From positions 1-45,364 of the IMG/VR virus record IMGVR_UViG_3300026097_000039: a stretch of 45,364 bases of DNA, one strand, 5' to 3'. The notes beneath the pieces were generated by a model, which worked only from the letters and a program-made list of their open reading frames with translations, was not told the origin of the DNA and did no database searches. Below, piece after piece: positions 534 through 44,253 of the stretch. This DNA comes from a virus. The stretch's first letter is position 1, and the number at the start of each line of letters is the position of its first letter. Made by a program: the position numbers and the translations under genes.

Positions 534-696
534 TTAAAAATCCTGGATATACAAATCTCATGTCAGGATCATATGCATAAAGTGCAAGGTACATACTAGC
601 ACTCACTGTAAAAACAAAACTTACTATTTCGTTGTAAAAAGCAATTCTGTCACTGCGGTAGCTGTTGATCCAAAATTGCTTGACGTTTTCGATCAC
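412..696 (-). CDS. Small integral membrane protein
   Basis: A 94-residue protein with a polar N-terminus followed by three hydrophobic segments (about residues 24-44, 49-64 and 70-88), ending in Trp-Trp. It probably sits in the host inner membrane. The start overlaps the stop of the dsbA-like gene by ATGA, so it belongs to the same transcription unit. It resembles small membrane proteins carried by marine T4-like phages; function unknown. Confidence 0.75.
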   Translation of the reverse strand: MIENVKQFWINSYRSDRIAFYNEIVSFVFTVSASMYLALYAYDPDMRFVYPGFLIGALTGCYAYYRRQLLWPMVLTGYFCFVNIFGFGRAVSWW

Positions 697-956
697 TGTA
701 GTTTGCCAGTGGTATCAAGAATGGTCTCTAGTAAATCATATTCTTCGCTGTGTTGCCCAAAGTTTCCCTTGTGAGCCACACGAATGGCTTTTTTTAGCAC
801 ACTTGGCTTGATTTCCATTTCTTCTGCAATTGCTTTGATGGTGTCGTTTAAACCTTCGTTGAGCATGTCGACTTCTTGCATCACGTTCATGCCTTCGTTG
901 ATAATTTGTACAAGTTTTTGCACTTCTGCCGGGTTGAATACTTTTCCTGAACTCAT
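693..956 (-). CDS. dsbA: DsbA-like double-stranded DNA-binding protein
   Basis: An 87-residue helical protein with the layout of T4 DsbA: an N-terminal amphipathic coiled coil (about residues 8-45), then a basic turn (KPSVLKKAIRVAHKG, about 52-66) and an acidic C-terminus. In T4, DsbA binds dsDNA and aids late transcription. A sigma70-type promoter lies directly upstream. The family call rests on length, composition and the conserved helix-basic patch, so it is good but not certain. Confidence 0.75.
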   Translation of the reverse strand: MSSGKVFNPAEVQKLVQIINEGMNVMQEVDMLNEGLNDTIKAIAEEMEIKPSVLKKAIRVAHKGNFGQHSEEYDLLETILDTTGKLQ

Positions 957-982
957 AGAGACCTCTTGTTATATCTAATGTT

Positions 983-1011
983 ATTGTATAGGATCAAAGA
1001 TAGTTTGTCAA
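983..1011 (-). promoter_or_regulatory. Sigma70-type promoter for the dsbA-like gene
   Basis: On the minus strand TTGACA (1006-1011), 17-bp spacer, TACAAT (983-988). The -35 abuts the stop codon of the upstream gene. It should be read by unmodified host polymerase early in infection. Confidence 0.75.
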
Positions 1012-2052
1012 TTAATTTTTTGGATTAAATTGGAACAACATTTCCTGTGGCTTGTCTGTGGTAATAATGGCTGGATTTTTACGAAAAACCTGTATCTGTT
1101 CCAAGTCATCTGCATTCTTGATTACACCCATGGCATTGTCTGCAAAACTAATGGCTGCTAGAACCTGCCATTCGCCGCCCATGTCTGAGTTTTTATACCA
1201 GTCAAAGTTGTCTTTGATGTAGGCTTTGCGAACAAGATTTGGATCTGCATTGTTTTTGGAAAATTCTTGAATGCTTCTGCTAGCAGAGTTTCCAAAAATT
1301 TCACCAAACACTGCTTCACCTATCTCCTTGCGATCAGCAGGAGTAATACCTTCTACTGAATTTACCAGTTGAACAAATGTTTCAACATTCATGCTTTTTT
1401 GTTTGTTGAGAAATTCGGCCACAGGTGCAGCCAACTTTTCAAACCCTGATAGTATCTGTACCATGCGACTTCTACTGGGCAGTTGTCCAGTTTCGCCAAA
1501 TCGGCCGCCGCCGCCGCCTTTCTTTTCGCTGGTGGCTGCTTTGACTTCAACAGGTGTATCTCCAACTGTTACATCGCCTTTGCCTTGTATGCTGATGTCC
1601 GAACTTAGAATAGCAAGTGCATGTTCCGCAGGCCCTTTCATTTTTTGCCCAACACCATAGCTTTTCAGATGTTCAAACACAGCTCTGTTAATTGGGTCGC
1701 CATAGGTCAATTGGTCGATGGTATAGCTGCCTGGAGTAATTAGCAGTTTGGCATTGATTACACGGTTGTTTTCTAGGTTTTCCAAGAATTTTAACTTTTG
1801 CGGATAGCTGAGATTAGAATCTGCAATCTTTGCTGCAATACGACGAATTTCTGCGACTGCATACTCGTCTTTGAGCACTTCTGGCAATACCTCGCCGAAT
1901 CGACTGGTTATGTTGTTTTTGTTCAATACTGTATAGATTTTATCCAGCAAGTCTCTGTCTTGTTCGGCCTGCAGGCGCTTGACAATCAACTGCTTTAGTT
2001 CTTTGTCTGCAATTTCTTCTTGGTATTCTCGGACAATTTGTGTAATTTTCAT
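1012..2052 (-). CDS. PD-(D/E)XK nuclease-like phage protein
   Basis: A 346-residue protein. A helical N-terminal third is followed by a motif at about residues 160-175, GDVTVGDTPVEVKAA, in which Asp is followed by Glu-x-Lys as in PD-(D/E)XK nuclease folds, then a Gly-rich run and GRFGETGQ. Nuclease activity is inferred from this motif only. The N-terminus (MKITQIVRE) resembles the leaders of several other proteins here that may be packaged in the head. An NNTAAATA element ends four bases before the ATG. Confidence 0.7.
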   Translation of the reverse strand: MKITQIVREYQEEIADKELKQLIVKRLQAEQDRDLLDKIYTVLNKNNITSRFGEVLPEVLKDEYAVAEIRRIAAKIADSNLSYPQKLKFLENLENNRVINAKLLITPGSYTIDQLTYGDPINRAVFEHLKSYGVGQKMKGPAEHALAILSSDISIQGKGDVTVGDTPVEVKAATSEKKGGGGGRFGETGQLPSRSRMVQILSGFEKLAAPVAEFLNKQKSMNVETFVQLVNSVEGITPADRKEIGEAVFGEIFGNSASRSIQEFSKNNADPNLVRKAYIKDNFDWYKNSDMGGEWQVLAAISFADNAMGVIKNADDLEQIQVFRKNPAIITTDKPQEMLFQFNPKN

Positions 2053-2056
2053 ATTG

Positions 2057-2063
2057 TATTTAG
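2057..2063 (-). promoter_or_regulatory. T4-type late promoter element CTAAATA
   Basis: CTAAATA on the minus strand, four bases before the ATG at 2052, overlapping the stop codon of the upstream gene. If used, the transcript would start at or next to the AUG. Confidence 0.45.
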
Positions 2064-2353
2064 TTGATGATTTTTTCTATTATCAACAGCACTAAGTCGT
2101 CTGTGCCTTTGATTATTCTATGGTGCGTGCCGCTGTCAATTAGGTATATTTTGTTGTGTACAAACGGTTCAGGCAATTGGTTATCGTACTGCAATTGCCA
2201 ATTGTTACCTTTGATTACTTGCACTGTTCTATCAAACTGATCTGTATGCCATTCCAGCCGATCTTCGTTGACGTCTTTGTCAAACACTCTAACAAATATT
2301 CTTTTGCTAGATGTTTGCCAAGCAACAGTGTCTGTGTAAGGTGTTACCACCAA
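2060..2353 (-). CDS. Small cupin-like protein
   Basis: A 97-residue, beta-rich protein. The spacing of H36xD, a mid-protein VIKGNNWQLQYD and the terminal DSGTHHRIIKGTDDLVLLII recalls the two cupin motifs of small phage cupin-fold proteins. A bound metal or ligand is possible but not shown. It overlaps the upstream gene by 10 bp. The family assignment is tentative. Confidence 0.6.
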   Translation of the reverse strand: MVVTPYTDTVAWQTSSKRIFVRVFDKDVNEDRLEWHTDQFDRTVQVIKGNNWQLQYDNQLPEPFVHNKIYLIDSGTHHRIIKGTDDLVLLIIEKIIN

Positions 2354-2940
2354 CGACCTCCGCCTTTGAGCCCCAAAGACTTGGCATATCGTGGCAATCT
2401 ACAAGCCCAGTAGCCTGCTTTGGTTTTGTCTTTTTTCTTTTCGCAGTTGTGTCTGGCTGCAAAGCTTTTACGAGCTTCTGGATCTTGTAATTTAACAGAG
2501 AGATTGCCACCGCCACCTTCTGCACCAAATTCTACTTTGTTAACATTGCCTGATTTGGGATTTTTAACATACACGTAGAATTTTTTACTGCCGCCGCGTT
2601 TGGGTTTGTTGAGCTCTACATCTCTGCCTTGATATTCAGCTTCTTTGATCACATGTTCATGTTCTTCGATTGGAAAGTCTAATGGTACATCGCCGACACC
2701 CTCTACAAATGCCCATTCGCCAATGTCTGTGTGTTCTATCAGTTCACGATCGAACCAGTGATTCAATTCTAATTCACCGTTGTTGTACTGTTGTCGTGCT
2801 TCGCGAAACAGTTCAAAATATGCGTCACTGCCCATGCGAAACATGTTTTCATGCAGATATACGCTGTTGTCAATGTGGAAATCAAGTGCTTCGCGAGCAC
2901 GTGACTCGCGAGGCTTGTTGTTTAAATTTTTTGCTTTCAT
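2344..2940 (-). CDS. Conserved phage protein with basic Cys-containing C-terminal module
   Basis: A 198-residue protein. Residues 1-100 are acidic with no recognised domain. Residues ~115-198 form a lysine-rich module (KKFYVYVKNP..., SFAARHNCEKKKDKTKAGYW, CRLPRYAKSLGLKGG) of a kind I associate with C-termini of diverse marine T4-like phage proteins. The two Cys and clustered basic residues suggest nucleic-acid or metal binding, which is inference. CTAAATACTTGC precedes the ATG; the identical 12 bases precede the gene starting at 8368. Confidence 0.7.
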   Translation of the reverse strand: MKAKNLNNKPRESRAREALDFHIDNSVYLHENMFRMGSDAYFELFREARQQYNNGELELNHWFDRELIEHTDIGEWAFVEGVGDVPLDFPIEEHEHVIKEAEYQGRDVELNKPKRGGSKKFYVYVKNPKSGNVNKVEFGAEGGGGNLSVKLQDPEARKSFAARHNCEKKKDKTKAGYWACRLPRYAKSLGLKGGGRWW

Positions 2941-2945
2941 GCAAG

Positions 2946-2952
2946 TATTTAG
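2946..2952 (-). promoter_or_regulatory. Late promoter element CTAAATA, five bases from ATG
   Basis: CTAAATA followed by CTTGC and then the ATG at 2940. The 15-base string CTAAATACTTGCATG is repeated exactly at 8366-8380. With T4 late spacing the RNA would start at the AUG. Confidence 0.6.
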
Positions 2953-2958
2953 TTGTGT

Positions 2959-3723
2959 TTAAATACCAGCGGCTTTCTTACAATTGAGTATGTATGCACT
3001 CATGTTGTGGTCCATAAGACCGTCAAAAGGTTTAAATTTACTCCATGCACTGACTATACCTGCCAATCTGTCTATGATTTCCTGCCATTTATTGTACTTG
3101 ACAAGAACCCCATACCGATTGAAGTACATCAATTCACCATGATGGCAATAGAACAACAGTGCTGGTGGCACTCGTGTAACAATATCATTGTTGTTGACAT
3201 AACGATAGTGCGAGAATGTGCAGTTTTCTACAAACTTTCTGTTTCCTGCTCTAGGACTACCGTATGTGTACAAACAATCAATGTGGCACTCGTCCTGTAG
3301 TTTACTGGCTGCAATTGTGGCCATGGCTGCACCCAAGCTGTGCCCTGTTATAAAAAACTTTTCAACGTCACTGTCAAACACATGCTTTTGCATGGCTGAC
3401 ATCACATCGTTCCAAATGTCTAATACCTCATTTTGGAATCCGTCGTGCACCCAACCGCTTGCTTCTGCGTCATCTGGCAATGCATTCAAATCTGCTGCTA
3501 AATCGTTCCACTGATCTGGTTCTGTACCCCTGAAGCTGAGTACCATCACGTTGTCTTGTTTTGAGAGGTAACCTTGTGCGCCACCTTTGTTGAAAAATTC
3601 TAAAACTTCAAATCCAATGCCTTCAAAAGGATTGTTTGTGCCGTTGTAATCTTCGTATGTCTTTCCTGCTATAACCGCGCAGACATAACCCACATATGCG
3701 GGATTGTTAAAATCTTGTTTCAT
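2959..3723 (-). CDS. Class 3 lipase (alpha/beta hydrolase)
   Basis: A 254-residue protein with the lipase class 3 plan: SFRGTEP near residue 65 (oxyanion strand), GHSLGA with the nucleophilic Ser at about 126-131, Asp in NNNDIVTRVPP at about 179 and His in DHNMSAYI at about 239. The triad appears complete, so it should hydrolyse acylglycerols or phospholipids. No signal peptide is seen, so it would act in the cytoplasm or as a virion or lysis component. It is transcribed from a clear late promoter with RBS GAGGG, which argues for a role late in infection. Confidence 0.88.
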   Translation of the reverse strand: MKQDFNNPAYVGYVCAVIAGKTYEDYNGTNNPFEGIGFEVLEFFNKGGAQGYLSKQDNVMVLSFRGTEPDQWNDLAADLNALPDDAEASGWVHDGFQNEVLDIWNDVMSAMQKHVFDSDVEKFFITGHSLGAAMATIAASKLQDECHIDCLYTYGSPRAGNRKFVENCTFSHYRYVNNNDIVTRVPPALLFYCHHGELMYFNRYGVLVKYNKWQEIIDRLAGIVSAWSKFKPFDGLMDHNMSAYILNCKKAAGI

Positions 3724-3756
3724 TTTTGACCCTCTAACCTTGTCTTTCGACAGTAA

Positions 3757-3764
3757 TATTTATC
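3757..3764 (-). promoter_or_regulatory. Late promoter GATAAATA for the lipase
   Basis: GATAAATA about 34 bases upstream of the lipase ATG, leaving room for an untranslated leader with a GAGGG ribosome site. It lies just beyond the stop of the preceding small gene. Confidence 0.75.
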
Positions 3765-3769
3765 GGGTA

Positions 3770-3934
3770 CTAGGTTGTTTTAGAGGACATAGCTGTGTTT
3801 TTATCACACAACAGGCACACACACTTTTTGCAGATCACATAAGTAAACCTGCCAATTTCACGACCGTTTACAGTTTTCTGCAAAGCTTGCATGCAATGAG
3901 AAGGATTTTTGCATTTAGAACAAGTTGTTTTCAT
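3770..3934 (-). CDS. Small zinc-ribbon protein (54 aa)
   Basis: An ORF starting with ATG overlapping the upstream stop as ATGA. It has CSKC near residues 5-8, a single Cys near 14, CKKC near 35-38 and two further Cys (C-x-x-C) at about 40-43, the pattern of a small zinc ribbon. The rest is basic. Such proteins often bind nucleic acid or another protein; the partner is unknown. Confidence 0.65.
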   Translation of the reverse strand: MKTTCSKCKNPSHCMQALQKTVNGREIGRFTYVICKKCVCLLCDKNTAMSSKTT

Positions 3935-4242
3935 TTGTTTTTGACGTTTTTAGCCTTTCCGCGACGATCTGGATTTGGATCTTTTCTGCGTTTTCTGCGA
4001 ACTGCTCTGGCAATACCAGCTTTGCCATCCTTTTTACCATCTCCGTCTGCGTCCGCGTTTCGCAAGCTAGCGGCTTTGCTCTTGCTCAAACACTTGGGCT
4101 TGGCATTGCCTTTGGTATCCCCGCACTTGCCGATTCGCTCGCCTTTGCTGTTGTAAGCATCCCAGCCTCCGCCACCTGCGCCACCTTTTTTGCCTTTGCC
4201 GAACCAATCCTTTAAACTTTCAGAAATTTCAGCGATCCGCAT
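3931..4242 (-). CDS. Basic Cys/Gly/Lys-rich phage protein, putative head-packaged
   Basis: A 103-residue protein starting at the ATG in a TAATG overlap with the upstream stop (an ATG 15 bases earlier lies inside that gene). N-terminal leader MRIAEISE, a Gly/Lys-rich linker, then a module WDAYNSKGERIGKCG...KPKCLSKSKA and a strongly basic tail (AVRRKRRKDPNPDRRGKA). Two conserved Cys and the basic tail suggest DNA binding. The leader ends in a hydrophobic-x-Glu site typical of prohead protease targets. Function is inferred only. Confidence 0.7.
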   Translation of the reverse strand: MRIAEISESLKDWFGKGKKGGAGGGGWDAYNSKGERIGKCGDTKGNAKPKCLSKSKAASLRNADADGDGKKDGKAGIARAVRRKRRKDPNPDRRGKAKNVKNK

Positions 4243-4649
4243 TATTCTTTGTCCCAACTAAGGCTGGTTTCGTCTGTGTCAATAGGACCACCAGCCGCCC
4301 AAGTTCGACAGGTCCTTGCACTGTGACACTTGAATTTGTGCATCCAGCAGTAGCCCAAGTATCCATCTTCGTCTTCTAGCTCGCCCGGCATACATTCTAG
4401 CATTCTTGGGCTGATATCAAATGCCGCACAGTTTGAACAAAGACTGGCTTTTGCGGCTTCTTCTGTGGTATTCCAGTGTTCTGCTATGTCTTTCCAGTAA
4501 TCACCGGGCACATCAACGTTTAGAGGGCCGTACTGTATGTGATCAGCACGAATAGCGGCATCACGGTTTTTAGTGTTGAGTTCCAAGTCTTGTGTTGCCA
4601 GTGGACAATTTTTTTCAATTGCTTCTAGTACGTTGATCAAGTCTCTCAT
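4242..4649 (-). CDS. Cys-rich conserved phage protein, putative metal-binding
   Basis: A 135-residue protein with about nine Cys, including CSNC (about 72-75), GYCWMHKFKCHS and RTCRTW near the C-terminus. The spacing suggests a bound metal or iron-sulfur cluster. It begins MRDLINVLE, fitting the leader pattern of its neighbours. It overlaps the next gene as TAATG and the previous one by four bases. It resembles a conserved but unnamed marine T4-like phage family. Confidence 0.7.
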   Translation of the reverse strand: MRDLINVLEAIEKNCPLATQDLELNTKNRDAAIRADHIQYGPLNVDVPGDYWKDIAEHWNTTEEAAKASLCSNCAAFDISPRMLECMPGELEDEDGYLGYCWMHKFKCHSARTCRTWAAGGPIDTDETSLSWDKE

Positions 4650-5212
4650 TTCTTCTTGCTCTTGTTGCCCCAGTTTTTAGCACCCACTTTGCGACATTGT
4701 ACTAGTGCTCCACTTGCATATGCACTTGGCCACACTTTATAGCGACTTTTGACTTTGTGATAACAAGCATCTTTTTCGCCAGCTGCTTCGTCAAACTGCT
4801 CTTCAGTGATAGTTTCGACACTTTCTTCCAGGCCAAATTCTCTTGGATCGGGCCATGAATCACGTTTGCCTTTATAGTAGTCGTTTACAGCTTGATACCA
4901 TGCTTCTTTGTCGTTTATTTTGTATCCGGCAATCTTTTCAAAGTCTTTGACTAACTTTTCTCTAGCACTAGATTTAGCTTCACTTACTGGATCTATTGTA
5001 GCAAATACTTGTGTCTTCTTGTTGTATTTTTGTTGGATAGTAGATGCGGCCCGGTTGGCAGATTGTTGGTTGCCGAATACTTTCCACTTTTTTCCATCAA
5101 TGTGCACAGCATAGTTATTCATGTTGCTTTGGTCGGGTTCGTCGTATGCACGATAGTCACTACCTGGACCTTTGCCGCCGTTGTATTGTTCGGTGAATTC
5201 ATTTGCTTTCAT
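4646..5212 (-). CDS. Putative head-packaged protein with CYHKVKSRYKVW module
   Basis: A 188-residue protein. Leader MKANEFTE is followed by a Gly/Asp-rich segment, a region with a GKKWKVFGNQ element that reads like a small alpha-beta domain, an acidic helical stretch, and a C-terminal module ACYHKVKSRYKVWPSAYA...VQCRKVGAKNW ending in KSKKK. I associate that basic two-Cys module with the ends of several marine T4-like phage proteins. DNA binding is inferred. Confidence 0.72.
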   Translation of the reverse strand: MKANEFTEQYNGGKGPGSDYRAYDEPDQSNMNNYAVHIDGKKWKVFGNQQSANRAASTIQQKYNKKTQVFATIDPVSEAKSSAREKLVKDFEKIAGYKINDKEAWYQAVNDYYKGKRDSWPDPREFGLEESVETITEEQFDEAAGEKDACYHKVKSRYKVWPSAYASGALVQCRKVGAKNWGNKSKKK

Positions 5213-5216
5213 GTTA

Positions 5217-5483
5217 TTATCCTAAAATCATTTGCTCTAATCGTGCTATTCTGGCCTCTAGTTGTGCAATCTTTTGATCTTTGTCGTCAGTTGGCTGTGT
5301 ATCAACTTTTTGTGGCGGTGTTGCAGGAACCTCAGCAGGAACACTTTCGTTGAGTTTGCCGAGTATGTCTTTCATTGCGGCTTTTTCGGCACTCAACGAT
5401 CCTGGTGTAGGTGCAGCTGATTCGTCTGAGTCTGTTTGGCCTTCCATTCTCTGAAGGATTTTCAACATTTCTGGGTCGTGCAT
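5217..5483 (-). CDS. Small acidic protein with C-terminal coiled coil
   Basis: An 88-residue protein: a short N-terminal helix, a long Pro/Thr/Ala/Ser-rich disordered middle, and a C-terminal heptad segment (DQKIAQLEARIARLEQMIL, about 68-87) that should oligomerise. A late promoter and an AAGGAT ribosome site lie upstream. It starts a minus-strand late operon running to the lipase side. Function unknown. Confidence 0.7.
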   Translation of the reverse strand: MHDPEMLKILQRMEGQTDSDESAAPTPGSLSAEKAAMKDILGKLNESVPAEVPATPPQKVDTQPTDDKDQKIAQLEARIARLEQMILG

Positions 5484-5502
5484 GGTTTTTGATCCTTTTG
5501 TC

Positions 5503-5510
5503 TATTTATG
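5503..5510 (-). promoter_or_regulatory. Late promoter CATAAATA
   Basis: CATAAATA on the minus strand, about 20 bases before the ATG at 5483. Its TAA is the stop codon of the upstream gene. Confidence 0.7.
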
Positions 5511-6675
5511 ATAAAAATTCTTCTATTCTAGTACCTGTAATCTCTCGCATATTTTGCTGAAAAAACAAATGTCTATTGTGTCTTAGTTTTTCAATTATTG
5601 CAGGTGTGATTTCAACGTCTTGTTTGCAATTATCAACAATAGTTTTTAGTCGCTGTGCTCTGTTGTATTCGTTGTCGTAGCTTTCGTCAAACAATTCCGG
5701 GAAGGTTTCGTAACCTCTGCTTTGCAAATAAGACAGCGTGCCTGCAGTGCCAAATATTTGAAAAGGATGGCCAATAGCAATAGGTTTGTAGGTCTTTTCT
5801 GTAAAAAACAACATGTAGTCCATGGTGTGTGTTTCCGACACCAAGCTGAATTTGGTTTTATAGTAGAGCTCTAGGGGACTCAAAAACGTGTGTTGTTTGT
5901 ACAAGTCCGAATAAAAGTTTTGTATAAAATCCAAAAAGTTGTTGTAATTGCTGTTGTCATAATTAAAACGGTCAAACAATTGTTGATCGGCAATATGCTT
6001 TTGGTGTTGCCACAAGCAACTTACTATATTGCTATCCAACAGGTTATCTTTGTGCAGATAGTACAAACAAGCTTGTTTGTTTGGTCTAACCAGTGCATTT
6101 AGATTAATAAAATTGTGTTGTTTTGGCGTACAAATATAGGTGTTCAAACTTTCAAGAATAGACGGTGTTTCCTTGTATTCTATTCTATCGTAGTGTATCA
6201 TTTCCCATATTTCTACACTACACACATGCATTTCTGAAAAATAACTGTGCTCAAACTTTTTGTGGTTGTGTTCGCCATTTAAATCTCCTGTGATAAAACA
6301 TATTTTGTCAGCAGGAATTTGCATCTTGCTGAGAATGTTATAAAAGTTATTCCATGCATCATCAAGCCACCAGTAGGAGTTTGCTTCTGTGGCTTGATAC
6401 AGCAACAATTTTGTGTCTTCTCTTTGCAAATAATCAATGTAATGCTGTGGTAAGTTTAAAAAATCCTTGAAACTATGAGGGTTGTAAAGATTTAGGCAAC
6501 AATAATTTTTGTTGTGTTTTTTTGGCTCTGTGGACTTTGAAAAAACTACACCGCACTTGTGCAACAGCCATTCAACAGTCCAATTCCAGTATTGATCGTT
6601 GCCGCTGAACGTTCGCTCTTTTTGGTTGTAGCAGCTTGTGTCGAGTGTTTGGTTTGGGTAAACAAGGTTAACCAT
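5506..6675 (-). CDS. Putative glycosyltransferase-like protein (TEKTYKPI type)
   Basis: A 389-residue protein. The recognisable part is the C-terminal third: LVSET, FFTEKTYKPIAIGHPFQIFG, then a Gly-x-LSYLQSRGYETF and FDESYD. The same string of motifs occurs in the gene at 12239-13465, so the two are paralogous. The TEK...PF motif followed by a conserved Asp-rich element recalls the acceptor or sugar-nucleotide site of fucosyltransferase-like GT-B enzymes, but this is tentative. It starts head-to-head with a radical SAM gene within a palindrome. Confidence 0.6.
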   Translation of the reverse strand: MVNLVYPNQTLDTSCYNQKERTFSGNDQYWNWTVEWLLHKCGVVFSKSTEPKKHNKNYCCLNLYNPHSFKDFLNLPQHYIDYLQREDTKLLLYQATEANSYWWLDDAWNNFYNILSKMQIPADKICFITGDLNGEHNHKKFEHSYFSEMHVCSVEIWEMIHYDRIEYKETPSILESLNTYICTPKQHNFINLNALVRPNKQACLYYLHKDNLLDSNIVSCLWQHQKHIADQQLFDRFNYDNSNYNNFLDFIQNFYSDLYKQHTFLSPLELYYKTKFSLVSETHTMDYMLFFTEKTYKPIAIGHPFQIFGTAGTLSYLQSRGYETFPELFDESYDNEYNRAQRLKTIVDNCKQDVEITPAIIEKLRHNRHLFFQQNMREITGTRIEEFLS

Positions 6676-6689
6676 AAATATATTTATGG
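6672..6689. promoter_or_regulatory. Palindromic divergent late promoter overlapping both start codons
   Basis: CCATAAATATATTTATGG is a perfect 18-bp palindrome. It carries CATAAATA on each strand and, five bases after it on each strand, the ATG of the divergent genes at 6675 (minus) and 6686 (plus). Both transcripts would start at the AUG. Confidence 0.6.
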
Positions 6690-7855
6690 GCTTTTATTGT
6701 GCATTAGCAAACTATGGTATTACAATAGATAACGATGATACTTTGATGCCCTGCTGTCAGTACAATCTAAATAAAAGCCAATTGCCCAAGCTATCGCACC
6801 GTCAAGCAGCCGACTTTGAAAAAACAGTTAGGCCTCAAATTATCAAAGATCTAGAGCAAGGTGTGCTTCATGCGGGCTGTGATGTTTGCTGGCATCAGGA
6901 AAAAATCAGCGGCAAAAGTTTGCGCACAGACTCAAACAAATTCTACACAGATGATCCTCGTGGCATAGTTGACATGGAAGTAAGACTGGGCAATGTGTGC
7001 AATTTAAAATGTCCAATGTGTGGTCCTTATGCTAGCAGTTTGTGGTATGCAGAAATGTCTAAACATCGAGATCAGTTTATGGAAAACAATTACTATCGAT
7101 TGATTGACAAAAAAGATCCTGTCGACAGTCAGTACAAACCAGATCGAGATTATTACACCAGCAAATGGTATGATGAACAAACTGTGTTTGAATTTGTAGA
7201 TTTGCGTTTGCATAATTTGCGCAAATTAAACATCAGCGGAGGCGAGCCGTTTATGTCTGATACCATGCGGTCTATTCTTCAAACACTGTCAGCTCGACAA
7301 GATCTGCATCCTGATTTTACAATTCAAATCAACACCAACGGCACTGTACTTGATCAAACACACATAGAGTTGTTGCAAAAAATAAAATACAGAGTGAGAA
7401 TTTGCATAAGCCTGGAAGGTGTTGGCAAACACAATGACTACCTAAGACATCCTTCAAACTGGCAGGACATTGACAAAAATATCAAAATTTTATGCGGAAT
7501 TCGCGACAAACGTATAGAGAAAAATTTTAGTGTGACATCTCAGCACACCGTTCAGCCAGCAAGCGTGTACAGTTTTTTACCATTGGCAGAGTATTGCTAT
7601 CAAATGCGTATTCCTATGGTACTGAGTCCCGTGTACAACAGTAAAATGGATCTGTCTGCTATAAATCAAGATGAAAAAAATAAGGTAAAAAACATACACT
7701 GTGATACATGCGACCAAGATACATTGGAACGCTTCAAAAGGATAATAAGAAAAATCAATCCTAAAGAACAGTCAAGAAAATCCTACAAAAAATACATTGG
7801 GTTTTTGGATAAAATTAGAAACACCAACTATGAAAGCTTGTTTGGTCCTTTGTGA
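6686..7855 (+). CDS. Radical SAM protein, twitch/SPASM-like
   Basis: A 389-residue protein. The 4Fe-4S-SAM motif CxxxCxxC is at about Cys105, 109 and 112 (GNVCNLKCPMCGP), followed by NISGGEPF (GGE motif for SAM) and INTNGT. Extra Cys pairs occur at the N-terminus (MPCCQYN, CDVCW) and C-terminus (CDTCDQ), which may bind an auxiliary cluster. The substrate is unknown. It is one of only four plus-strand genes; its 3' end overlaps the convergent neighbour by 28 bp. Confidence 0.85.
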   Translation: MGFYCALANYGITIDNDDTLMPCCQYNLNKSQLPKLSHRQAADFEKTVRPQIIKDLEQGVLHAGCDVCWHQEKISGKSLRTDSNKFYTDDPRGIVDMEVRLGNVCNLKCPMCGPYASSLWYAEMSKHRDQFMENNYYRLIDKKDPVDSQYKPDRDYYTSKWYDEQTVFEFVDLRLHNLRKLNISGGEPFMSDTMRSILQTLSARQDLHPDFTIQINTNGTVLDQTHIELLQKIKYRVRICISLEGVGKHNDYLRHPSNWQDIDKNIKILCGIRDKRIEKNFSVTSQHTVQPASVYSFLPLAEYCYQMRIPMVLSPVYNSKMDLSAINQDEKNKVKNIHCDTCDQDTLERFKRIIRKINPKEQSRKSYKKYIGFLDKIRNTNYESLFGPL

Positions 7856-8064
7856 TCTTCAGGATATATTGACTTTACTTTGCGTGAATAATTTTTAGGC
7901 TTGACTTTTTTGCGGTTTGGTCGGTTGATGGTATAACCATATGGATCCACAGCACGTCGGATCATTGCAGGATCACCAAACAACGGCATGCTCACAGCAG
8001 CTATATTTTCACTGGCAGTGGCACCATCTGTGGCAACTTCTAGTATGATTTCACTGATCTTCAT
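7828..8064 (-). CDS. Small conserved phage protein, putative head-packaged
   Basis: A 78-residue protein from the ATG at 8064 (an earlier ATG at 8088 lies inside the upstream gene). Leader MKISEIILE, then DGATASENIAAV and a basic C-terminus (RPNRKKVKPKNYSRKVK). The leader matches the hydrophobic-x-Glu pattern of its neighbours. It overlaps the upstream stop by 14 bp, and the convergent radical SAM gene by 28 bp. Function unknown. Confidence 0.65.
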   Translation of the reverse strand: MKISEIILEVATDGATASENIAAVSMPLFGDPAMIRRAVDPYGYTINRPNRKKVKPKNYSRKVKSIYPEDHKGPNKLS

Positions 8065-8368
8065 ATTCAATCTCGGCCGACAACGCACTTTTTTCTTGTG
8101 CTAGCACTTTTGTGGTGCTGAGGCAGTCTTTGATACCAATGTTTGTGATCTTGTAGCTGAGTGGAGGTATTACCCATTCAACTTGCACACACACCGGCCG
8201 ACTGTTTACAATTATAGGACTGCGTTCTGCATAGTATGTGCTATTCATGTCATCTGCCAAAAACGTGCGTTCTGTCATCAAGTATCCATCGATGTACAAT
8301 CTGTACACCGGAGGTTTGTCTTTGATGACCAAAGCATGTATATCTAAGCAAACAACCTGTGATTCCAT
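8051..8368 (-). CDS. Conserved phage protein, unknown function
   Basis: A 105-residue beta-rich protein (YRLYIDGYLMTERTF..., PVCVQVEW). I choose the ATG at 8368 over the in-frame ATG at 8383 because CTAAATACTTGC stands immediately before it, identical to the sequence before the gene at 2940. The element RLYIDGYLMTERTF suggests a structural or beta-sandwich protein; no enzyme motif is seen. Confidence 0.68.
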   Translation of the reverse strand: MESQVVCLDIHALVIKDKPPVYRLYIDGYLMTERTFLADDMNSTYYAERSPIIVNSRPVCVQVEWVIPPLSYKITNIGIKDCLSTTKVLAQEKSALSAEIEYEDQ

Positions 8369-8373
8369 GCAAG

Positions 8374-8380
8374 TATTTAG
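8374..8380 (-). promoter_or_regulatory. Late promoter element CTAAATA, five bases from ATG
   Basis: CTAAATA-CTTGC-ATG, the second copy of the string at 2938-2952. It predicts a leaderless transcript beginning at 8368. Confidence 0.6.
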
Positions 8381-8398
8381 CAAACAATTGCAGGTGTT

Positions 8399-8581
8399 TT
8401 ATTTGTTGGTGTACCAGCTGGCTATTCTTGTGAGATAATTGTGTGGCACTCTTTGTGATTTTTTGTGCGAAGTCTTGAGTTTTTTGGCCTTGGCTCGTAG
8501 GCGCTTTTGGTCTGTTTTGCTTAGTTTATCTTTGGAATTTACACCCATGTAATCTGCGGCTTGTTTTAAAAACACATTCAT
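8399..8581 (-). CDS. Small basic protein (60 aa)
   Basis: Strongly basic (about one third Lys/Arg), with LSKTDQKRLRAKAKKLKTSHKK in the middle. It follows the 799-aa gene by 16 bp with a good upstream GGAGTATACC leader. Nucleic-acid binding is plausible from charge only. No family recognised. Confidence 0.65.
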   Translation of the reverse strand: MNVFLKQAADYMGVNSKDKLSKTDQKRLRAKAKKLKTSHKKSQRVPHNYLTRIASWYTNK

Positions 8582-8597
8582 GGTATACTCCTTGTTG

Positions 8598-10997
8598 TTA
8601 TTTTTTCTTACGTCCCGACTTCATGTTGGCGCACCAGTGGTATCCTTTCTGTTTTTCGCCACTGCTGTTTTTAGCTTTCTTGCGTAGACTTGTAACACTT
8701 CCCTTGCAGCTAACACCTGCCTTTTTAAACCTTCCTGGTCTGCTTTTGCCTTTTACTTTACCATCAGCAAAGTTTTCGTCCAGTGTGGATTCTTTCATGG
8801 TTGCTACAAAGTATACACTGCCTGGATCTTGAGCATCAACAATTTCTTTTTCGTAGGCTTTGCGTAGGTCAGACACTCTGCGTTTGTATTCTTCACGATC
8901 AATTTCGCCACTAAGTTGTAGATCTAACAAGTGTGCCAGTTCTTTGGTTTCTTCTGCTTCGAGATCCTTGATATCTTGTGCTCGATTTAGTGTGCTGAAC
9001 TTGCTGTCTAAGTTGTCATCTACCATAGCATATTCATCAGATTTTTCGTCATACGCATAAACTGTTAGATCAGGATCTTGTGCTAGCTTTTTCCAAACAG
9101 CAGTGCCACCTGCACTTTGTTCTACGTCGCTTTTGATCACACCAACATCCTGTATTGCCACTTTGTACAATTCTGGCATTACACCTTGCCCTTGGTATTC
9201 TGGCAACATCATTGCCATGCTCATTTTGCCGCGACCCGGCGCACCCACCAGTTTTAGCATACCAAACGGTTTGTTGTCGTCTAACAAGAAGTAATAAATT
9301 GTATTGCCGTGTTTGCCTTTTGCCACAGCGTAGTTTTTTACACTGTCCCCTGTAAGCTCTGCTCCGCTTCCATCCAGTGCATCCTGAAAAAGATCTGGAC
9401 TGATGCCCATGTCATCTTTTTCGACATCTATTTGCTCGACTTCCGTTAGGTCTATGCCGCGCTTGGTTAGTTCCTTGCGAATTGCTTTTTTTAACTGTTG
9501 ATCCACTGGCTCGTTGGTGAGTTTTTTCAAAAAATTCATTAGATTTTTTGTATTGTATTGTTGTACTAGAACTGCGCTTTCTTTTACATTCTTTTTGTCT
9601 GCAATAGCAACCAATCTTACATCGCTAGATCTGTTAAGTTGTTTTAATTCTTCCATGCCTTTTGCATAATCAGCATTGCTAATTTTGCCATTTTCAAAAT
9701 CTCGTTGTAACTGATCCAGCTTATCTTCGTCGTAGTAGATTTCGCTGTCGTTATCTTCGTCAGGATTCCACTGGAAAAATTGATCATTGTTTTTGTCCCA
9801 TGCATACACAAATACACCAGGCACATTTGCAAGTTTTTTCCATATCCCCTCTTTGCTTCCTTTGCTTTGAATGTGATCACTTACAAGTGTATAGCCTTGT
9901 TTAATCGCATAAACATACAGAGGAAGTGCAATACCTTTGCCCTGGATCTCTGGATCAAAGAATACACTGCTTTTCCAATATTTGTCAAGATAGTTGGTTA
10001 ACATTAATGCCCCTAAAAATCCTTCACTGTCTGGATCTTTAATGAGGAAAAACTCCACTCCTTCCCTGTCTTTTTTAATATAATGTATGTCGTATCCTTT
10101 GATTGTGCTTACTTTTTTTGTTTTTCCGATAAAGTTATCATAATCCCCACGATACAAAAAATTTTTTTCGATGCGATTATCTATTTCGATTTCACTAATT
10201 TGCTTCCAACGTTCTGTAAGTTGTGCTACTTTATTTGTATCCTGTGAATTTTTAGTTGCTCGAGCGTGTAGCAGCGGTGGTTCGTTGTCTTTGTTTAGTT
10301 TGATACCTAGTTTTGCCGCCTGACGTTGTGTTTCTCCGGGCTTGACATCTGCTGTGGTATTTTGTGCATCAATAATACCCACACCAGCTACTTCGGCAAA
10401 AATACCTTTTGTTTTGGGTGTTTTTTTCTTGCCTATGTTTTTGAGTGCTCGTTTGATTTTGTTTATGCCGCTCACTGTGTAGAACATGGTTTTAAGCACA
10501 GGTATAGACACGCCCAGCACTATAGCAAGTTGTTTGATTTCTTCTAGATTGAACTGCCCAAAAAGCCCAGCCAAATCAGCCGCGGCTCCGGCGTCTTCGA
10601 TGGCAAACTCTGGATTGGAAGTTTTAAAATTGTCTTTTCTCATCACTGTTTTGGCAATGAGATCTAATTCTTGGTTGTTGGCGTCCCACACCAGTACAAA
10701 AGGCATGTTAACATCTGTCTTCATATCCTTCATAACTGCTTGTGCATCAGGCCCTAGTTGAGCAATTTTCTTGCCCCACTTTTTGAACTCTTGCTTGAAC
10801 AAGCGAGTAAGTTCTGCTAGTGTGATTTGACGTTGGTTGCGTTGATCATTTACACGATCTAGAAAGTGTTGTGTAAACTCTACATCAATGCCAACCTTGC
10901 CAAACAATCGATCAGCATATGCTTCAAGTTGTTCTAGATCACTGCGTGTTACTGGCGCTGATTCTGCACCTTCATTGAGCCAACTCCAATTGCTCAT
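8598..10997 (-). CDS. Large double-GNAT protein, putative head-packaged
   Basis: A 799-residue multidomain protein. Residues ~1-135 carry a domain with FTQHFLDRVNDQRNQR...ITLAELTRLFKQ seen in marine T4-like phages. A hydrophobic helix lies near 160-180. Two GNAT-like acetyltransferase folds follow: VFFDPEIQGKGIALPLYVYA near 345 and MLPEYQGQGVMPELYKVA near 600, each matching the Q/RxxGxG/A acetyl-CoA loop. An acidic coiled-coil region precedes a C-terminal module (GRFKKAGVSCKG, KGYHWCANMKSGRKKK). The N-terminus SNWSWLNE-GAES is a good prohead protease site. Substrate unknown; injected acetyltransferase activity is inferred. Confidence 0.75.
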   Translation of the reverse strand: MSNWSWLNEGAESAPVTRSDLEQLEAYADRLFGKVGIDVEFTQHFLDRVNDQRNQRQITLAELTRLFKQEFKKWGKKIAQLGPDAQAVMKDMKTDVNMPFVLVWDANNQELDLIAKTVMRKDNFKTSNPEFAIEDAGAAADLAGLFGQFNLEEIKQLAIVLGVSIPVLKTMFYTVSGINKIKRALKNIGKKKTPKTKGIFAEVAGVGIIDAQNTTADVKPGETQRQAAKLGIKLNKDNEPPLLHARATKNSQDTNKVAQLTERWKQISEIEIDNRIEKNFLYRGDYDNFIGKTKKVSTIKGYDIHYIKKDREGVEFFLIKDPDSEGFLGALMLTNYLDKYWKSSVFFDPEIQGKGIALPLYVYAIKQGYTLVSDHIQSKGSKEGIWKKLANVPGVFVYAWDKNNDQFFQWNPDEDNDSEIYYDEDKLDQLQRDFENGKISNADYAKGMEELKQLNRSSDVRLVAIADKKNVKESAVLVQQYNTKNLMNFLKKLTNEPVDQQLKKAIRKELTKRGIDLTEVEQIDVEKDDMGISPDLFQDALDGSGAELTGDSVKNYAVAKGKHGNTIYYFLLDDNKPFGMLKLVGAPGRGKMSMAMMLPEYQGQGVMPELYKVAIQDVGVIKSDVEQSAGGTAVWKKLAQDPDLTVYAYDEKSDEYAMVDDNLDSKFSTLNRAQDIKDLEAEETKELAHLLDLQLSGEIDREEYKRRVSDLRKAYEKEIVDAQDPGSVYFVATMKESTLDENFADGKVKGKSRPGRFKKAGVSCKGSVTSLRKKAKNSSGEKQKGYHWCANMKSGRKKK

Positions 10998-12028
10998 TTC
11001 TTTTTGCGTCCTTGGCAGTGTGCTCGCTGACTAAATCCTTTGGGATTGGCACAGTCTATGCTGTTTTTGTATTTTTGACTCCATGCTTCGCGAAAAGATT
11101 CTACGCTTTCACCTGCTTCCATCACAGCTATTTCGTCTGGCGTAAACGATTCTGCACGAACACCTTGAACCTTTTTTAGCAATAGTCGCACCATGGTAAT
11201 CAGTTTCATTTTCATTTCGTCACTGGCGGTGCCTTTGCTGTCAATGTCTCTAAAGTCTGCAATCATTTTGGTTGCACGAGCAATCTGCTTTGCTAGTACG
11301 CCATTTGCACCTGTGTAGAAACGCTTGGCCTTGCTCTTAGGCGGTGTTGGATCACTGCGGTAGTTGCCTAGTTCGTCTGGTCTTGCTGGTTGCACATCTT
11401 CTTTCACAGGTTGTATTTTGTCTCGCATGAGTTCGTGTATCTTTTCACTGTAGCTACCAAACAAATCTTTTACAATAAGTGCTTGCTGTTTAGCATCAGC
11501 AGATGCAAACTGCTGGCGTACTTCTGTGGCGCTTTTCATTGGCTTGCCTAGCAAGTCAAAGCGAAAAGTAGGCACAGCTTCAATGTAACCACGCTTGCTC
11601 AATGGTTCAAGATCGTCATCTTTGGGCAAAGGTGCAAAGTAACCCGGACTGCCATCTGCTTTGGGCTTGAACGCAAAACGTGGATCTTCCATCATGTCTT
11701 TTTCGCTGACCGCAAAAATAACTGCTGTATTTTCTGGATCAGCTACTTTGCTTGTAACTTCTGTTGCTTTGTATGGTTCTTTGACCTGTTTGACGCGGCT
11801 GCCTGGTACACCCACATGTCGCATGATGGTTTGTTTTTCTTGAAAGTTGAACGGACTTTTTGGAGGATCCACTTTGTCGCTGGTAACAATGTAGACATTG
11901 CTCACACCATACTTGTTAACCAAGTGGTCGTACACTGCTTTATGTCCTTTGTGAAAAGGATGGAATCTTCCTGGATAGAGAACTAGTGTTTGTGTAGTGT
12001 CTTGTTCTGTGATTTGCTCAATTTGCAT
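10994..12028 (-). CDS. HxGH nucleotidyltransferase with basic C-terminal module
   Basis: A 344-residue protein. Residues ~14-200 form a cytidylyltransferase/NMNAT-like domain: YPGRFHPFHKGHKAVYDHL with the HxGH ATP-binding motif, and near 165 SATEVRQQF, the second nucleotide contact (usually ISxTxxR). The C-terminal part is helical and ends SIDCANPKGFSQRAHCQGRKKK-like, a two-Cys basic module. N-terminal leader MQIEQITE. The nucleotide and acceptor are unknown; NMN or a phosphosugar are options. It overlaps the double-GNAT gene by four bases. Confidence 0.8.
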   Translation of the reverse strand: MQIEQITEQDTTQTLVLYPGRFHPFHKGHKAVYDHLVNKYGVSNVYIVTSDKVDPPKSPFNFQEKQTIMRHVGVPGSRVKQVKEPYKATEVTSKVADPENTAVIFAVSEKDMMEDPRFAFKPKADGSPGYFAPLPKDDDLEPLSKRGYIEAVPTFRFDLLGKPMKSATEVRQQFASADAKQQALIVKDLFGSYSEKIHELMRDKIQPVKEDVQPARPDELGNYRSDPTPPKSKAKRFYTGANGVLAKQIARATKMIADFRDIDSKGTASDEMKMKLITMVRLLLKKVQGVRAESFTPDEIAVMEAGESVESFREAWSQKYKNSIDCANPKGFSQRAHCQGRKKK

Positions 12029-20252: not shown

Positions 20253-20783
20253 TTAATTTCCTTTGAATGTTTTAACTGAATCGTAAAAGTCCCACGTGCC
20301 TGTTTGTGGAACTCTTGCAATGTTTTTGTATTGTTCTAGTTGTGTGTTTTGCGTTTGATGCGATTCATACGCATCTGGTGTGCAAGGCACCAAATCCTGC
20401 AAAACCAACCGGCTTGCAGGGTATTTAGTATTGTTGCCTTTGTACTTGATCATCCAGTCATTAATATCGGTCAAATTTGTTATGCCTGAAAGTATGGTCA
20501 TTAATTGTGCCGGAAACTCTTCAGTACGTGGTATCTCTGCAAACACCAGGTAGGCATCATCGGTTTTTTCACCGTTGCTGACATCTGCGTCCAGCACATA
20601 ATCATAGCCTTTTTCTATGAATTTTACCAGATCATCTGCAGGTTCGCGATCAGTGATTTTAAAACTCACTGTAACAACGTCTTTGTTTTCGCCCATTTTG
20701 CTGGAATATTCGTCAATGAAAACATTATTTCTCATGAGACGACGCAGATCTCCTGCTTTTAATCCTTCAAATAGAGCTGTCAT
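20253..20783 (-). CDS. Conserved T4-like phage protein, unknown function
   Basis: A 176-residue protein with MRNNVFIDEYSSKMGENKDVVTVSF, DREPADDLVKFIEKGYDYVLDADVS and a C-terminal WDFYDSVKTFKGN. I recognise the sequence type from marine T4-like phages but know no function. Overlaps the upstream gene by 17 bp and stands just before the endolysin. Confidence 0.7.
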   Translation of the reverse strand: MTALFEGLKAGDLRRLMRNNVFIDEYSSKMGENKDVVTVSFKITDREPADDLVKFIEKGYDYVLDADVSNGEKTDDAYLVFAEIPRTEEFPAQLMTILSGITNLTDINDWMIKYKGNNTKYPASRLVLQDLVPCTPDAYESHQTQNTQLEQYKNIARVPQTGTWDFYDSVKTFKGN

Positions 20784-21279
20784 CTTGAATACCTTTGGGG
20801 TTGTTTAATTCTTGTTCTTCTGCTGATTCCAGGTCATCGGCATTGATAAGTTGATTGTTCAACCGTTTTTTGCCTTGTTCAATGTCATTCATCAGTTTTT
20901 TTGGCATGATCAATTCAACTATCCAAATTGGTTTTTTTTCTAGTTTGCCTTTTCTGCTGCCGTCACCTCTGTAGTCTTCGGGTGATTCTATTTTTACAGG
21001 GTACACCAGTTGTTCTTTGACGTAGTTTACTTCAATACCATAGGGCTTTAATCTTTCTATCAGTTGCGGATCTGGCATTTTGTTGTAAGGCCACATAAAC
21101 TTAGCACCTACAAAATATTTTTCAAACACAGGGCCTTCTACCAATTCCCCGTGGAGCCAATTTTTGTAGGAGTACACATTTAGTTCGTCTAGTACACGCT
21201 CCATGTCAAGCAAGTATTCCAAACTGTTGTCGCTCATGTACACACTTTTGGTATTTTCGATGATTTTTTTCAGTTCCAT
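20767..21279 (-). CDS. Conserved T4-like phage protein, unknown function
   Basis: A 170-residue protein with YSYKNWLHGELVEGPVFEKYFVG, MWPYNKMPDPQLIERL and a charged C-terminus. N-terminal MELKKIIE also resembles the short leaders ending in Glu seen in several proteins here. It resembles a conserved marine T4-like phage family; possibly virion-associated, on genomic position only. Confidence 0.7.
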   Translation of the reverse strand: MELKKIIENTKSVYMSDNSLEYLLDMERVLDELNVYSYKNWLHGELVEGPVFEKYFVGAKFMWPYNKMPDPQLIERLKPYGIEVNYVKEQLVYPVKIESPEDYRGDGSRKGKLEKKPIWIVELIMPKKLMNDIEQGKKRLNNQLINADDLESAEEQELNNPKGIQDDSSI

Positions 21280-34604: not shown

Positions 34605-34975
34605 TACTTGAGGATCTTTTCCAAATCTGGAGCAAAATAGCTTTCTCCCTTGAGAATTTTACCGTCCTCTCTGTAGATAGGTCTTCCGGTGGCACCCAAC
34701 TTGCTCATGTTGCTAGTATGAACTTCATCAAAGCATGCATCAAGATCAATGCCAAAAGCATGTCCTGCTCCATATGTGACATACAGTATATCGGTGAGTG
34801 CATCTGCCACTTCGACAATGTTGTCTTCGCTGATAGCATCTACCAGTTCGTTAAGTTCTTCTCTGATGAGTTCTATGCGCAGTCGTTGTGTATCGCCGTC
34901 GGCTAGAGAAGCAGTTTTTTTCACATTTTGGCCAAAGGCAGTCATAAAATGTTCTACTTTTTCAAAGTTTGTCAT
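34604..34975 (-). CDS. mazG: MazG-like nucleotide pyrophosphohydrolase
   Basis: A 123-residue all-alpha protein with the MazG magnesium motif: IREELNELVDAI (EExxE type) and VADALTDILYVTYG (ExxD/ D-rich second helix). The C-terminus carries GRPIYREDGKILKGE, typical of phage MazG-like proteins. It should hydrolyse NTPs or (d)NTP analogues. Coupled by ATGA to a possible small upstream ORF. Confidence 0.86.
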   Translation of the reverse strand: MTNFEKVEHFMTAFGQNVKKTASLADGDTQRLRIELIREELNELVDAISEDNIVEVADALTDILYVTYGAGHAFGIDLDACFDEVHTSNMSKLGATGRPIYREDGKILKGESYFAPDLEKILK

Positions 34976-35106
34976 ATTTCCTCAAATTCTAACTCATATT
35001 GATTATTTAAGAAACAATCGCGTGGTAGTGCCAGTTCCGGAGCATCAGAGTAATCATAATCAGTAACTACATCAAATCCCGCGGAATCTAAAGTTTCTAC
35101 GTGCAT
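34972..35106 (-). CDS. Possible small acidic protein (44 aa)
   Basis: Begins MHVETLDSAGFDVVTDYDY and ends ELEFEEI, coupled as ATGA to mazG. Its ATG lies inside the -10 hexamer TATAAT of the promoter at 35105-35133, so it would not be on a transcript from that promoter; transcription from further upstream would be needed. Confidence 0.38.
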   Translation of the reverse strand: MHVETLDSAGFDVVTDYDYSDAPELALPRDCFLNNQYELEFEEI

Positions 35107-35133
35107 TATACAAGATCCGAATAGTTTTGTCAA
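35105..35133 (-). promoter_or_regulatory. Sigma70-type promoter upstream of mazG
   Basis: TTGACA (35128-35133), 17-bp spacer, TATAAT (35105-35110), both perfect consensus. It leads to mazG through a long leader that overlaps the small ORF. Confidence 0.82.
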
Positions 35134-35883
35134 CTACCAAACTGTAGTAGGAAGAGCCACTCGCGTCCATATACTAGTACTGCCGCCGTCATAGTCAGCT
35201 GTGCAAAAGTATATGTAGTCTTCGTCAAAGGCAAAATCGCCTTGTTCGTCGCCCGGCAAGCCCACACTGCTGGCAATTGTTCGATAGTCTACCTTACGAG
35301 TTCTAGTGGTGTGTTCTGTGACCACAAAAGTTGTGCCGCTGTCGGTGGTAACAAATTCATAGACATACGTACCAGTTCTATAAAAATCGATAACACCTGT
35401 TGTACTGTCGTACCCAACTAGGTTTTCCTCGCCTAATAGTGTATAAGTGCCTGGATCTATGGTAACAGAATGTGCAGTGCTAGTGATTGTTACTTCAACT
35501 CTAATTCTGCCTAGTTTTCCAGCAGCTGGCAAATTGCTGAATCCAAATGTTAAATCGCCGTTGCTGGTTACTGTTTGATAATGCCCGTCTTCGTGGTTGA
35601 ATGTAACTGTACCGTCCGTTGTGCCTTTGTCAACTACAGTTTCGGCAAAATCACGTACTTCAAAATCCAGCAACAATGCCCCTGCACCATCGTTGTCAAG
35701 TGTTTCGCCTGACAGTGCACTTTTCAACAAAGCTTTGTTTTGAATATCTTCAATTTCACTTTTAGCACTGGTTAGTGCTGTTTTGATATTGGTGAAGTTG
35801 TCACGGAAACCCTGTGAATCATTGTCTTGTCCTGCAACAGGATAGGTTCCGTCGATGCTGCTAGGATTAATACTACTGGCCAT
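35134..35883 (-). CDS. Virion structural protein, fibre-associated
   Basis: A 249-residue protein, Thr/Gly/Ser-rich with short beta strands. N-terminal DGTYPVAGQDNDSQGFRDNF resembles tail-fibre anchor regions. The C-terminal FAFDEDYIYFCTADYDGG resembles the end of the gene at 38421, so the two share a module. Late promoter and GGAG leader upstream. Likely trimeric. Confidence 0.72.
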   Translation of the reverse strand: MASSINPSSIDGTYPVAGQDNDSQGFRDNFTNIKTALTSAKSEIEDIQNKALLKSALSGETLDNDGAGALLLDFEVRDFAETVVDKGTTDGTVTFNHEDGHYQTVTSNGDLTFGFSNLPAAGKLGRIRVEVTITSTAHSVTIDPGTYTLLGEENLVGYDSTTGVIDFYRTGTYVYEFVTTDSGTTFVVTEHTTRTRKVDYRTIASSVGLPGDEQGDFAFDEDYIYFCTADYDGGSTSIWTRVALPTTVW

Positions 35884-38388: not shown

Positions 38389-38406
38389 GGTATTCCTCTT
38401 TTAGTA

Positions 38407-38414
38407 TATTTACC
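38407..38414 (-). promoter_or_regulatory. Late promoter GGTAAATA
   Basis: GGTAAATA about 19 bases before the ATG at 38388, with AAGAGG as ribosome site. Confidence 0.65.
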
Positions 38415-38420
38415 AGAGTT

Positions 38421-38807: not shown

Positions 38808-38832
38808 GTTGTGTCTCTCTGTGGTATAAATT

Positions 38833-40640: not shown

Positions 40641-40668
40641 ATAATAACACATTGTGCTGAATTGTCAA
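40641..40668 (-). promoter_or_regulatory. Sigma70-type early promoter
   Basis: TTGACA (40663-40668), 16-bp spacer, TATTAT (40641-40646). The -35 overlaps the stop of the radical SAM gene. Confidence 0.82.
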
Positions 40669-44227: not shown

Positions 44228-44245
44228 TATCTGCTCCTTTTTAGA

Positions 44246-44253
44246 TATTTATA
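44246..44253 (-). promoter_or_regulatory. Late promoter TATAAATA (full consensus) for sdhB
   Basis: TATAAATA about 19 bases before the sdhB ATG, over the dadA stop, with AAGGAG in the leader. It shows that sdhB is expressed from a phage late promoter. Confidence 0.85.

Follow-up and report, generated by a model that had tools for sequence, protein, structure and literature searches.

T4-type leaders probably target a diverse set of proteins to the head of an uncultured T4-like phage, with probable head-protease sites at their module borders

The internal proteins of phage T4, IPI–III and Alt, are otherwise unrelated proteins that share an N-terminal leader of 8–10 residues with a hydrophobic-x-Glu end. 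The T4 head protease gp21 recognises L/I-X-E and cleaves behind it, and IPIII needs no more than its first ten residues for packaging, residues 4 and 7 being used for targeting and residues 8 and 10 for processing (PMC9026906). It has been suggested that such leaders may have evolved as a means by which T4-like phages load diverse proteins (PMC9026906). The ejection proteins of phiKZ and SPN3US are likewise packaged into the head, and a gp21-related protease cleaves their N-terminal propeptides behind Glu, but these propeptides are often longer than 100 aa and carry the motif S/A/G-x-E, not L/I/V-x-E. The polyvalent effectors of Iyer, Aravind and colleagues are large multidomain proteins as well; they combine ART, GNAT and further domains, and packaging and injection are predicted for them. 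As far as the accessible part of their description goes, however, they are defined by domain fusion and not by leaders, and no head-protease rule is given for the domain borders. Nucleotidyl- or cytidylyltransferases have been detected by mass spectrometry (MS) in the virions of cyanophages S-CREM2, S-SCSM1, S-SZBM1 and S-SM1, together with proteins carrying the basic modules described below in S-CREM2 and S-SZBM1. In the accessible parts of the cyanophage reports, such virion enzymes appear as possible contaminants or with no targeting explanation. No description of a leader of this kind in marine T4-like phages was found in the open-access literature.

The stretch analysed here (the window; IMG/VR record IMGVR_UViG_3300026097_000039, positions 1–45,364) is one fragment (45 kb) from the genome of an uncultured T4-like phage, and nearly all genes of the window lie on the minus strand. 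Megablast of the window against phage DNA gave no match. A sister contig of 83 kb, IMGVR_UViG_3300007609_001696, is 99.99% identical over window positions 1–44295 and adds 39 kb to the left of the window, mainly replication genes (DNA polymerase, clamp and so on). No portal, protease, scaffold or capsid gene was recognised in the window or in the 83-kb contig, and a gp21 search of the latter was negative; the head genes of this phage are located outside the known sequence. The last 1069 bases of the window are missing from the sister contig, which stops at window position 44295. Genes resembling a succinate dehydrogenase iron-sulfur protein and a D-amino-acid dehydrogenase were seen by eye at the right end of the window (43520–45364) and represent either auxiliary genes or an assembly edge. 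By eye, too, the DNA polymerase gene at 34713–38822 of the sister contig (loci L031 and L032) appears to be split into two parts with intein-like ends, which flank a 318-aa ORF, and the products of window 6686–7855 and 40665–41867 look like two radical-SAM proteins with similar CNLxCxxC motifs.

The leaders and the putative cargo genes of the window are listed below. A slash marks the position after the Glu, and the leaders are assigned from the sequence and the leader rule unless a family match is given.

1012..2052, minus strand: nuclease-like candidate cargo protein, 346 aa, with GKGD160...E169VK171 invariant
2026..2052, minus strand: leader MKITQIVRE/YQ of gene 1012–2052
2347..2640, minus strand: basic two-Cys module of gene 2344–2940, 98 aa, pI 10.0, after EHVIKE/AEYQG; PHROG_7595, 1.6e-14
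3934..4218, minus strand: basic two-Cys module SLKDWFGKGKKGG..., 95 aa, pI 10.5; PHROG_727
4219..4242, minus strand: leader MRIAEISE/SL of gene 3931–4242
4623..4649, minus strand: leader MRDLINVLE/AI of gene 4242–4649 (HiPIP-like, Cys-rich)
4649..4786, minus strand: basic two-Cys module of gene 4646–5212, 46 aa, pI 10.1, after EEQFDE/AAGEKDACYHKVK
5189..5212, minus strand: leader MKANEFTE/QY of gene 4646–5212
8038..8064, minus strand: leader MKISEIILE/VA of gene 7828–8064 (78 aa, mature pI 10.0)
8598..10997, minus strand: putative multidomain cargo protein, 799 aa; conserved N-terminal domain at about aa 16–130, GNAT at about 564–616
8601..8774, minus strand: basic two-Cys module of gene 8598–10997, 58 aa, pI 10.8, after ESTLDE/NFADGKVKGK
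10971..10997, minus strand: leader MSNWSWLNE/GAES of gene 8598–10997
10997..11086, minus strand: basic two-Cys module of gene 10994–12028, 30 aa, pI 10.2, after VESFRE/AWSQKYKNSIDC
12005..12028, minus strand: leader MQIEQITE/QD of gene 10994–12028 (nucleotidyltransferase)
21256..21279, minus strand: leader MELKKIIE/NT of gene 20767–21279, a possible further member; PHROG_12928 (virion structural protein), 2.8e-29

All eight leaders named by the first-pass annotation are present at these positions. Each has the form of a T4-type N-terminal propeptide, about 7–20 residues ending in L/I-x-E or a close variant, with V and F also found at P3. Compared with T4, the leader is usually one or two residues shorter (hydrophobic-x-x-hydrophobic-x-E), and the cargo is more numerous, larger and equipped with enzyme domains. 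One hydrophobic residue or Ala at P6 or P7 is found in all leaders, and a second, at P4, only in MKITQIVRE, MKISEIILE and MSNWSWLNE. The start of MKISEIILE is an internal ATG of the listed ORF. The listed ORF of gene 3931–4242 begins further upstream at a TTG, and its leader ATG overlaps the stop codon of gene 4242–4649. The overlapping series 10994/8598 and 4646/4242/3931 are probably translationally coupled. The small gene at 5217–5483 starts with MKDILGKLNE/SVPAE, where another hydrophobic-x-E site leads into a Pro/Ala-rich stretch, and its product may be a further substrate.

The functional labels proposed in the first pass hold to different degrees. The protein of gene 10994–12028 is cytidylyltransferase-like, with an HxGH-type motif (GRFHPFHKGH) and a match to PHROG_395 (cytidyltransferase, 1.1e-9), but its score against Pfam PF01467 is 19.1 bits, just under the cut-off of 21. 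Residues 165–314 of the same protein also match weakly (2e-5) positions 238–385 of the 668 of PHROG_133, a head maturation protease family. In the supposed double acetyltransferase of 799 aa, one GNAT domain (aa 564–616) passes the Pfam cut-off; another, at about 320–400, is visible by eye with no profile detection. An AlphaFold model of its N-terminal domain is poor (pLDDT 61), and a fold search with it gave nothing significant; an RNase-like (DUF4258-type) identity for this domain was dropped for want of support. The protein of gene 1012–2052 is a nuclease candidate, recognised solely by its GKGD...VEVK motif, in which D160, E169 and K171 are invariant in the four aligned sequences; these residues may correspond to the catalytic D...(D/E)xK motif of PD-(D/E)XK nucleases. 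It matches no Pfam or PDB family, has only a weak PHROG match and no match among cultured phages, and its AlphaFold model is poor (pLDDT 55), with nothing significant in a fold search. Basic Cys-containing ends, ascribed to these proteins as frequent, are found in the products of 3931–4242, 4646–5212, 8598–10997 and 10994–12028 but not in those of 1012–2052, 4242–4649 and 7828–8064, and also in that of gene 2344–2940, which bears a module and no N-terminal leader. The product of gene 4242–4649 is rich in Cys yet acidic (pI 4.7), without a basic module, and its relatives are annotated as high potential iron-sulfur proteins. In Actinomycetia phage DSL-LC01 (L296, 1159–1893), a homolog of this gene lies directly upstream of the capsid maturation protease.

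The frequency of the leader was measured with two rules. The loose rule, essentially the published T4 rule, requires Glu at residue 8–10 and a hydrophobic residue at E-2; the strict rule, written with the window leaders known, adds a further such residue, or Ala, at E-5 or E-6 and excludes P, C and G. Chance expectations were obtained by shuffling residues 2–31 of the same proteins. In the cluster at 693–12028, the loose rule is satisfied by 7 of 17 genes (1.0 expected), and the strict rule also by 7 of 17 (0.36 expected), with a Poisson P of about 1e-7 that is optimistic because the leaders were already known when that rule was written. Strict leaders occur in 2 of 49 genes in the rest of the window (1.2 expected) and in 0 of 48 in the adjoining 39-kb replication region of the sister contig (1.2 expected). 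The contrast between 7 of 17 in the cluster and 2 of 97 elsewhere in the genome (Fisher P 1.4e-5) carries the same rule-design bias, less strongly, and the further tests were made on other genomes. The leader set exceeds chance, and it is not equally common in replication proteins, which the first-pass annotation had named as a refuting outcome. T4 served as a positive control: IPII, IPIII, Alt, gp24 and gp2 satisfy the strict rule, gp21 and gp22 satisfy the loose one, and IPI is missed. The rule is matched by 16 of 225 T4 genes against 7.3 expected, several of the matches being clearly cytoplasmic proteins. Since about seven matches in T4 are due to chance, the motif alone is weak evidence for a single gene, and the case depends on the clustering and on the association with MS-detected proteins.

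The five modules of the window each contain exactly two cysteines and have a pI of 10.0–10.8. In an IMG/VR sample of about 270 loci with 3,982 non-identical ORFs, module-bearing ORFs were recognised by six module signatures. The strict leader is present in 128 of 322 module-bearing ORFs (40%) versus 416 of 3660 others (11%; P 1e-34). Among the ORFs without a module, leaders become rarer with distance from a module gene, from 18.6% of those next to it to 5.3% at more than 8 kb, the shuffle rate being 2.1–2.7%; genes with leaders are thus clustered. Direct fusion of the leader to a module is seen in many ORFs, as in MRANEFITE/AWSQKYKKSINC, MRASEFTE/NFADGKVKGK, MRAYELHE/DLKAWFGKGK and MRYTEILE/ACWKGYRQ, and the leader-module architecture of gene 3931–4242 recurs there as well (MRINEVINE/DLRAWFGKGKKGG and others).

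The same sample yields a new observation on the module borders, which are preceded by [L/V/I]-x-E. For five modules in internal positions, a hydrophobic-x-E lies no more than 8 residues before the module start in 24/24, 47/56, 13/17, 18/26 and 27/29 cases, compared with 13–22% at random positions. In 103 distinct internal junctions that end in Glu, a hydrophobic residue stands at P3 in 88% (L 27, V 26, I 24), at P2 in 14% and at P4 in 24%, against a background of 32%. The signal is found at the borders of several unrelated modules, both directly behind the start leader and deep in the proteins, and it equals the T4 gp21 cleavage rule; this recurrence at internal borders distinguishes the cargo of the window type from that of T4. 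The junctions of the window obey it too (SFRE/AWSQ, TLDE/NFAD, QFDE/AAGE, EISE/SLKD and VIKE/AEYQ). The pattern looks like protease specificity and not like the usual conservation of a domain; the Glu and the next residue could nevertheless be partly fixed as residues of the module itself. These sequence features suggest that the cargo is built as polyproteins cut up by the head protease.

Virion proteomics of cyanophage relatives bears on the leader independently. Of 219 proteins extracted for S-CREM2, 52 were detected by MS in purified virions (PMC10665884 Table 3). The strict leader is carried by 6 of the 28 detected non-structural proteins (0.52 expected), by none of the 24 structural proteins and by 6 of the 165 undetected proteins, which is chance level (4.9 expected). 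The detected leaders are MKDFDSFLE of ORF6, which is the start of a SAM hydrolase, MKDLHSFLTE of ORF13, MKRFDAFLTE of the ORF14 kinase, MNFSEFNE of ORF15, MQTFSMFFSE of ORF136 and MKNFSSFLTE of the ORF154 cytidylyltransferase. The authors weigh packaging and contamination for the non-structural virion proteins (PMC10665884), and the leader argues for packaging over contamination. The cytidylyltransferase detected by MS in S-SZBM1 starts with MRFRQFIIE/A, and proteins starting with MKSFKSFLSE and MKTFKQYITE are encoded in the structural-gene region of that phage; other cyanophages likewise have a cytidylyltransferase or NMNAT in the virion. Leader- or module-bearing proteins are thus present in the virions of both S-CREM2 and S-SZBM1. 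S-CREM2 ORF160, also detected by MS, carries a homolog of the module of window gene 4646–5212. Neither ORF160 nor S-RIM8 gp114 has an N-terminal leader, and therefore some proteins must have another targeting route; the notion that every module protein needs a leader is ruled out by ORF160. An RFASFMAE/AA segment close to the start of the Cas9-like virion protein of S-CREM2, ORF12 (L042 7704–10313), suggests that a nuclease is packaged in the head, with its leader behind a short N-terminal extension.

Leaders, modules and the head protease occur together in other relatives. The equivalent gene block of Methylophilales phage Melnitz encodes proteins starting with MQGFKTFLSE, MLTLINFSKYITE, MKKFSEIIE, MKNFKNHIAE and others, and the MKKFSEIIE/A protein is a nucleotidyltransferase fused to the counterpart of the 2344–2940 module. 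As in T4, relatives of the window phage have gp21, gp22 and gp23: Melnitz has a complete head module with a serine protease and these three proteins, and a gp21-family S77 protease and a gp22 core are annotated in Melnitz, S-RIM8, S-CREM2 and S-SZBM1. Of 22 large viral contigs with modules, many perhaps incomplete, 11 carry Peptidase_S77; the other half, which show none, may be fragments. Relatives of the 1012–2052 protein in L046–L048 are 60% identical and start with MRARQFLFE/Y as against MKITQIVRE/Y, keeping M1, Q5, E9 and Y10; in two of these loci, L046 and L047, the gene immediately precedes that of the terminase large subunit. The first-pass view of an undescribed set in one phage is accordingly too narrow. 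An equivalent gene block occurs in Melnitz, leader- and module-bearing ORFs occur in IMG/VR viruses, and marine T4-like viruses show the arrangement widely. Earlier reports had already described cytidylyltransferases, kinases and a SAM hydrolase in association with virions, the targeting signal going unrecognised in the accessible parts of those reports. On its main point, head targeting with cleavage after Glu as the likely fate, that annotation is largely supported by the MS-detected proteins of relatives, the gp21/CTS rules and the protease in relatives.

On one rival view, short acidic and hydrophobic N-termini are common in phage proteins, and the leaders would be functionless products of chance and composition. 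The rule has 2–5% false positives per gene, it matches cytoplasmic T4 proteins, and its strict form was written with the window leaders known. This explanation is nevertheless strongly disfavoured and very improbable, given 7 of 17 genes in the cluster against a shuffle expectation of 0.36, the lack of any strict leader among the 48 replication-region genes, the independent match to MS-detected proteins, the decay of the leader rate away from module genes and the recurrence of the same rule deep inside proteins with P3 constrained and P2 and P4 free. Even less credible is a capsid-independent membrane- or host-targeting signal acting during infection: the amphipathic character of leaders such as MKISEIILE would suit it on sequence grounds, but the association with virions by MS, the agreement with the T4 CTS and the internal recurrence of the motif do not.

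A more serious alternative is that the leaders target the proteins but stay uncut, or are cut at the N-terminus only, with the border Glu being the first conserved residue of the module. At some borders the Glu and the following residue are nearly fixed (E-N before FADGK), as expected for residues of the domain itself. This remains the less probable view, since P3 is hydrophobic in 88% of the junctions with P2 and P4 variable, across four unrelated modules and diverse upstream sequence, and since the same Glu closes the start leader where the module comes first. It is rather unlikely that the proteins are structural or assembly parts of the head or neck instead of cargo delivered to the host. 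T4 gp24, gp22 and gp2 also fit the rule, the family of gene 20767–21279 is annotated as structural, in jumbo phages among its relatives, and S-RIM8 gp114 and the nuclease-like gene of L046 sit among structural genes. Catalytic-type domains (nucleotidyltransferase and GNAT here, kinase and SAM hydrolase in S-CREM2) and the great differences in membership between relatives speak against such a role. The explanation that we hold with good confidence is that these are T4-type capsid-targeting leaders cut after Glu by a gp21-family protease, that the borders are probably cut as well and that delivery to the host is probable. Its direct support consists of the leader statistics, the virion association by MS in relatives, the junction rule and the protease in relatives.

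By analogy with T4, the leader would dock to the scaffold core in the prohead, thereby bringing otherwise unrelated proteins into the head. A gp21-family protease would then cleave after the Glu of [L/I/V/F]-x-E to free the mature proteins, which would remain in the head with the DNA and would probably enter the host when it is infected. This protease probably also cuts [L/V/I]-x-E at the module borders, so that the larger cargo proteins would act as polyproteins releasing small basic peptides, and these peptides might bind the packaged DNA. Packaging and cleavage of the leader-bearing proteins are very likely, and injection of the cargo is proposed from the T4 precedent. For marine T4-like phages in general, the chances seem evenly balanced that the head protease serves as a polyprotein processor, with enzymes and shuffled two-Cys peptides being freed in the head and entering the host with the DNA.

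This arrangement, which is widespread among marine T4-like viruses, amounts to a variant of the T4 system of internal proteins, apparently one not yet described in marine phages. If this is true, the head cargo of abundant ocean phages would be readable from sequence, the leader and the border sites predicting packaging and cuts. It would explain the recurrent cytidylyltransferases in cyanophage virions and would help to tell genuine cargo from contaminants. It would also yield a candidate list of early-acting anti-defence or take-over proteins.
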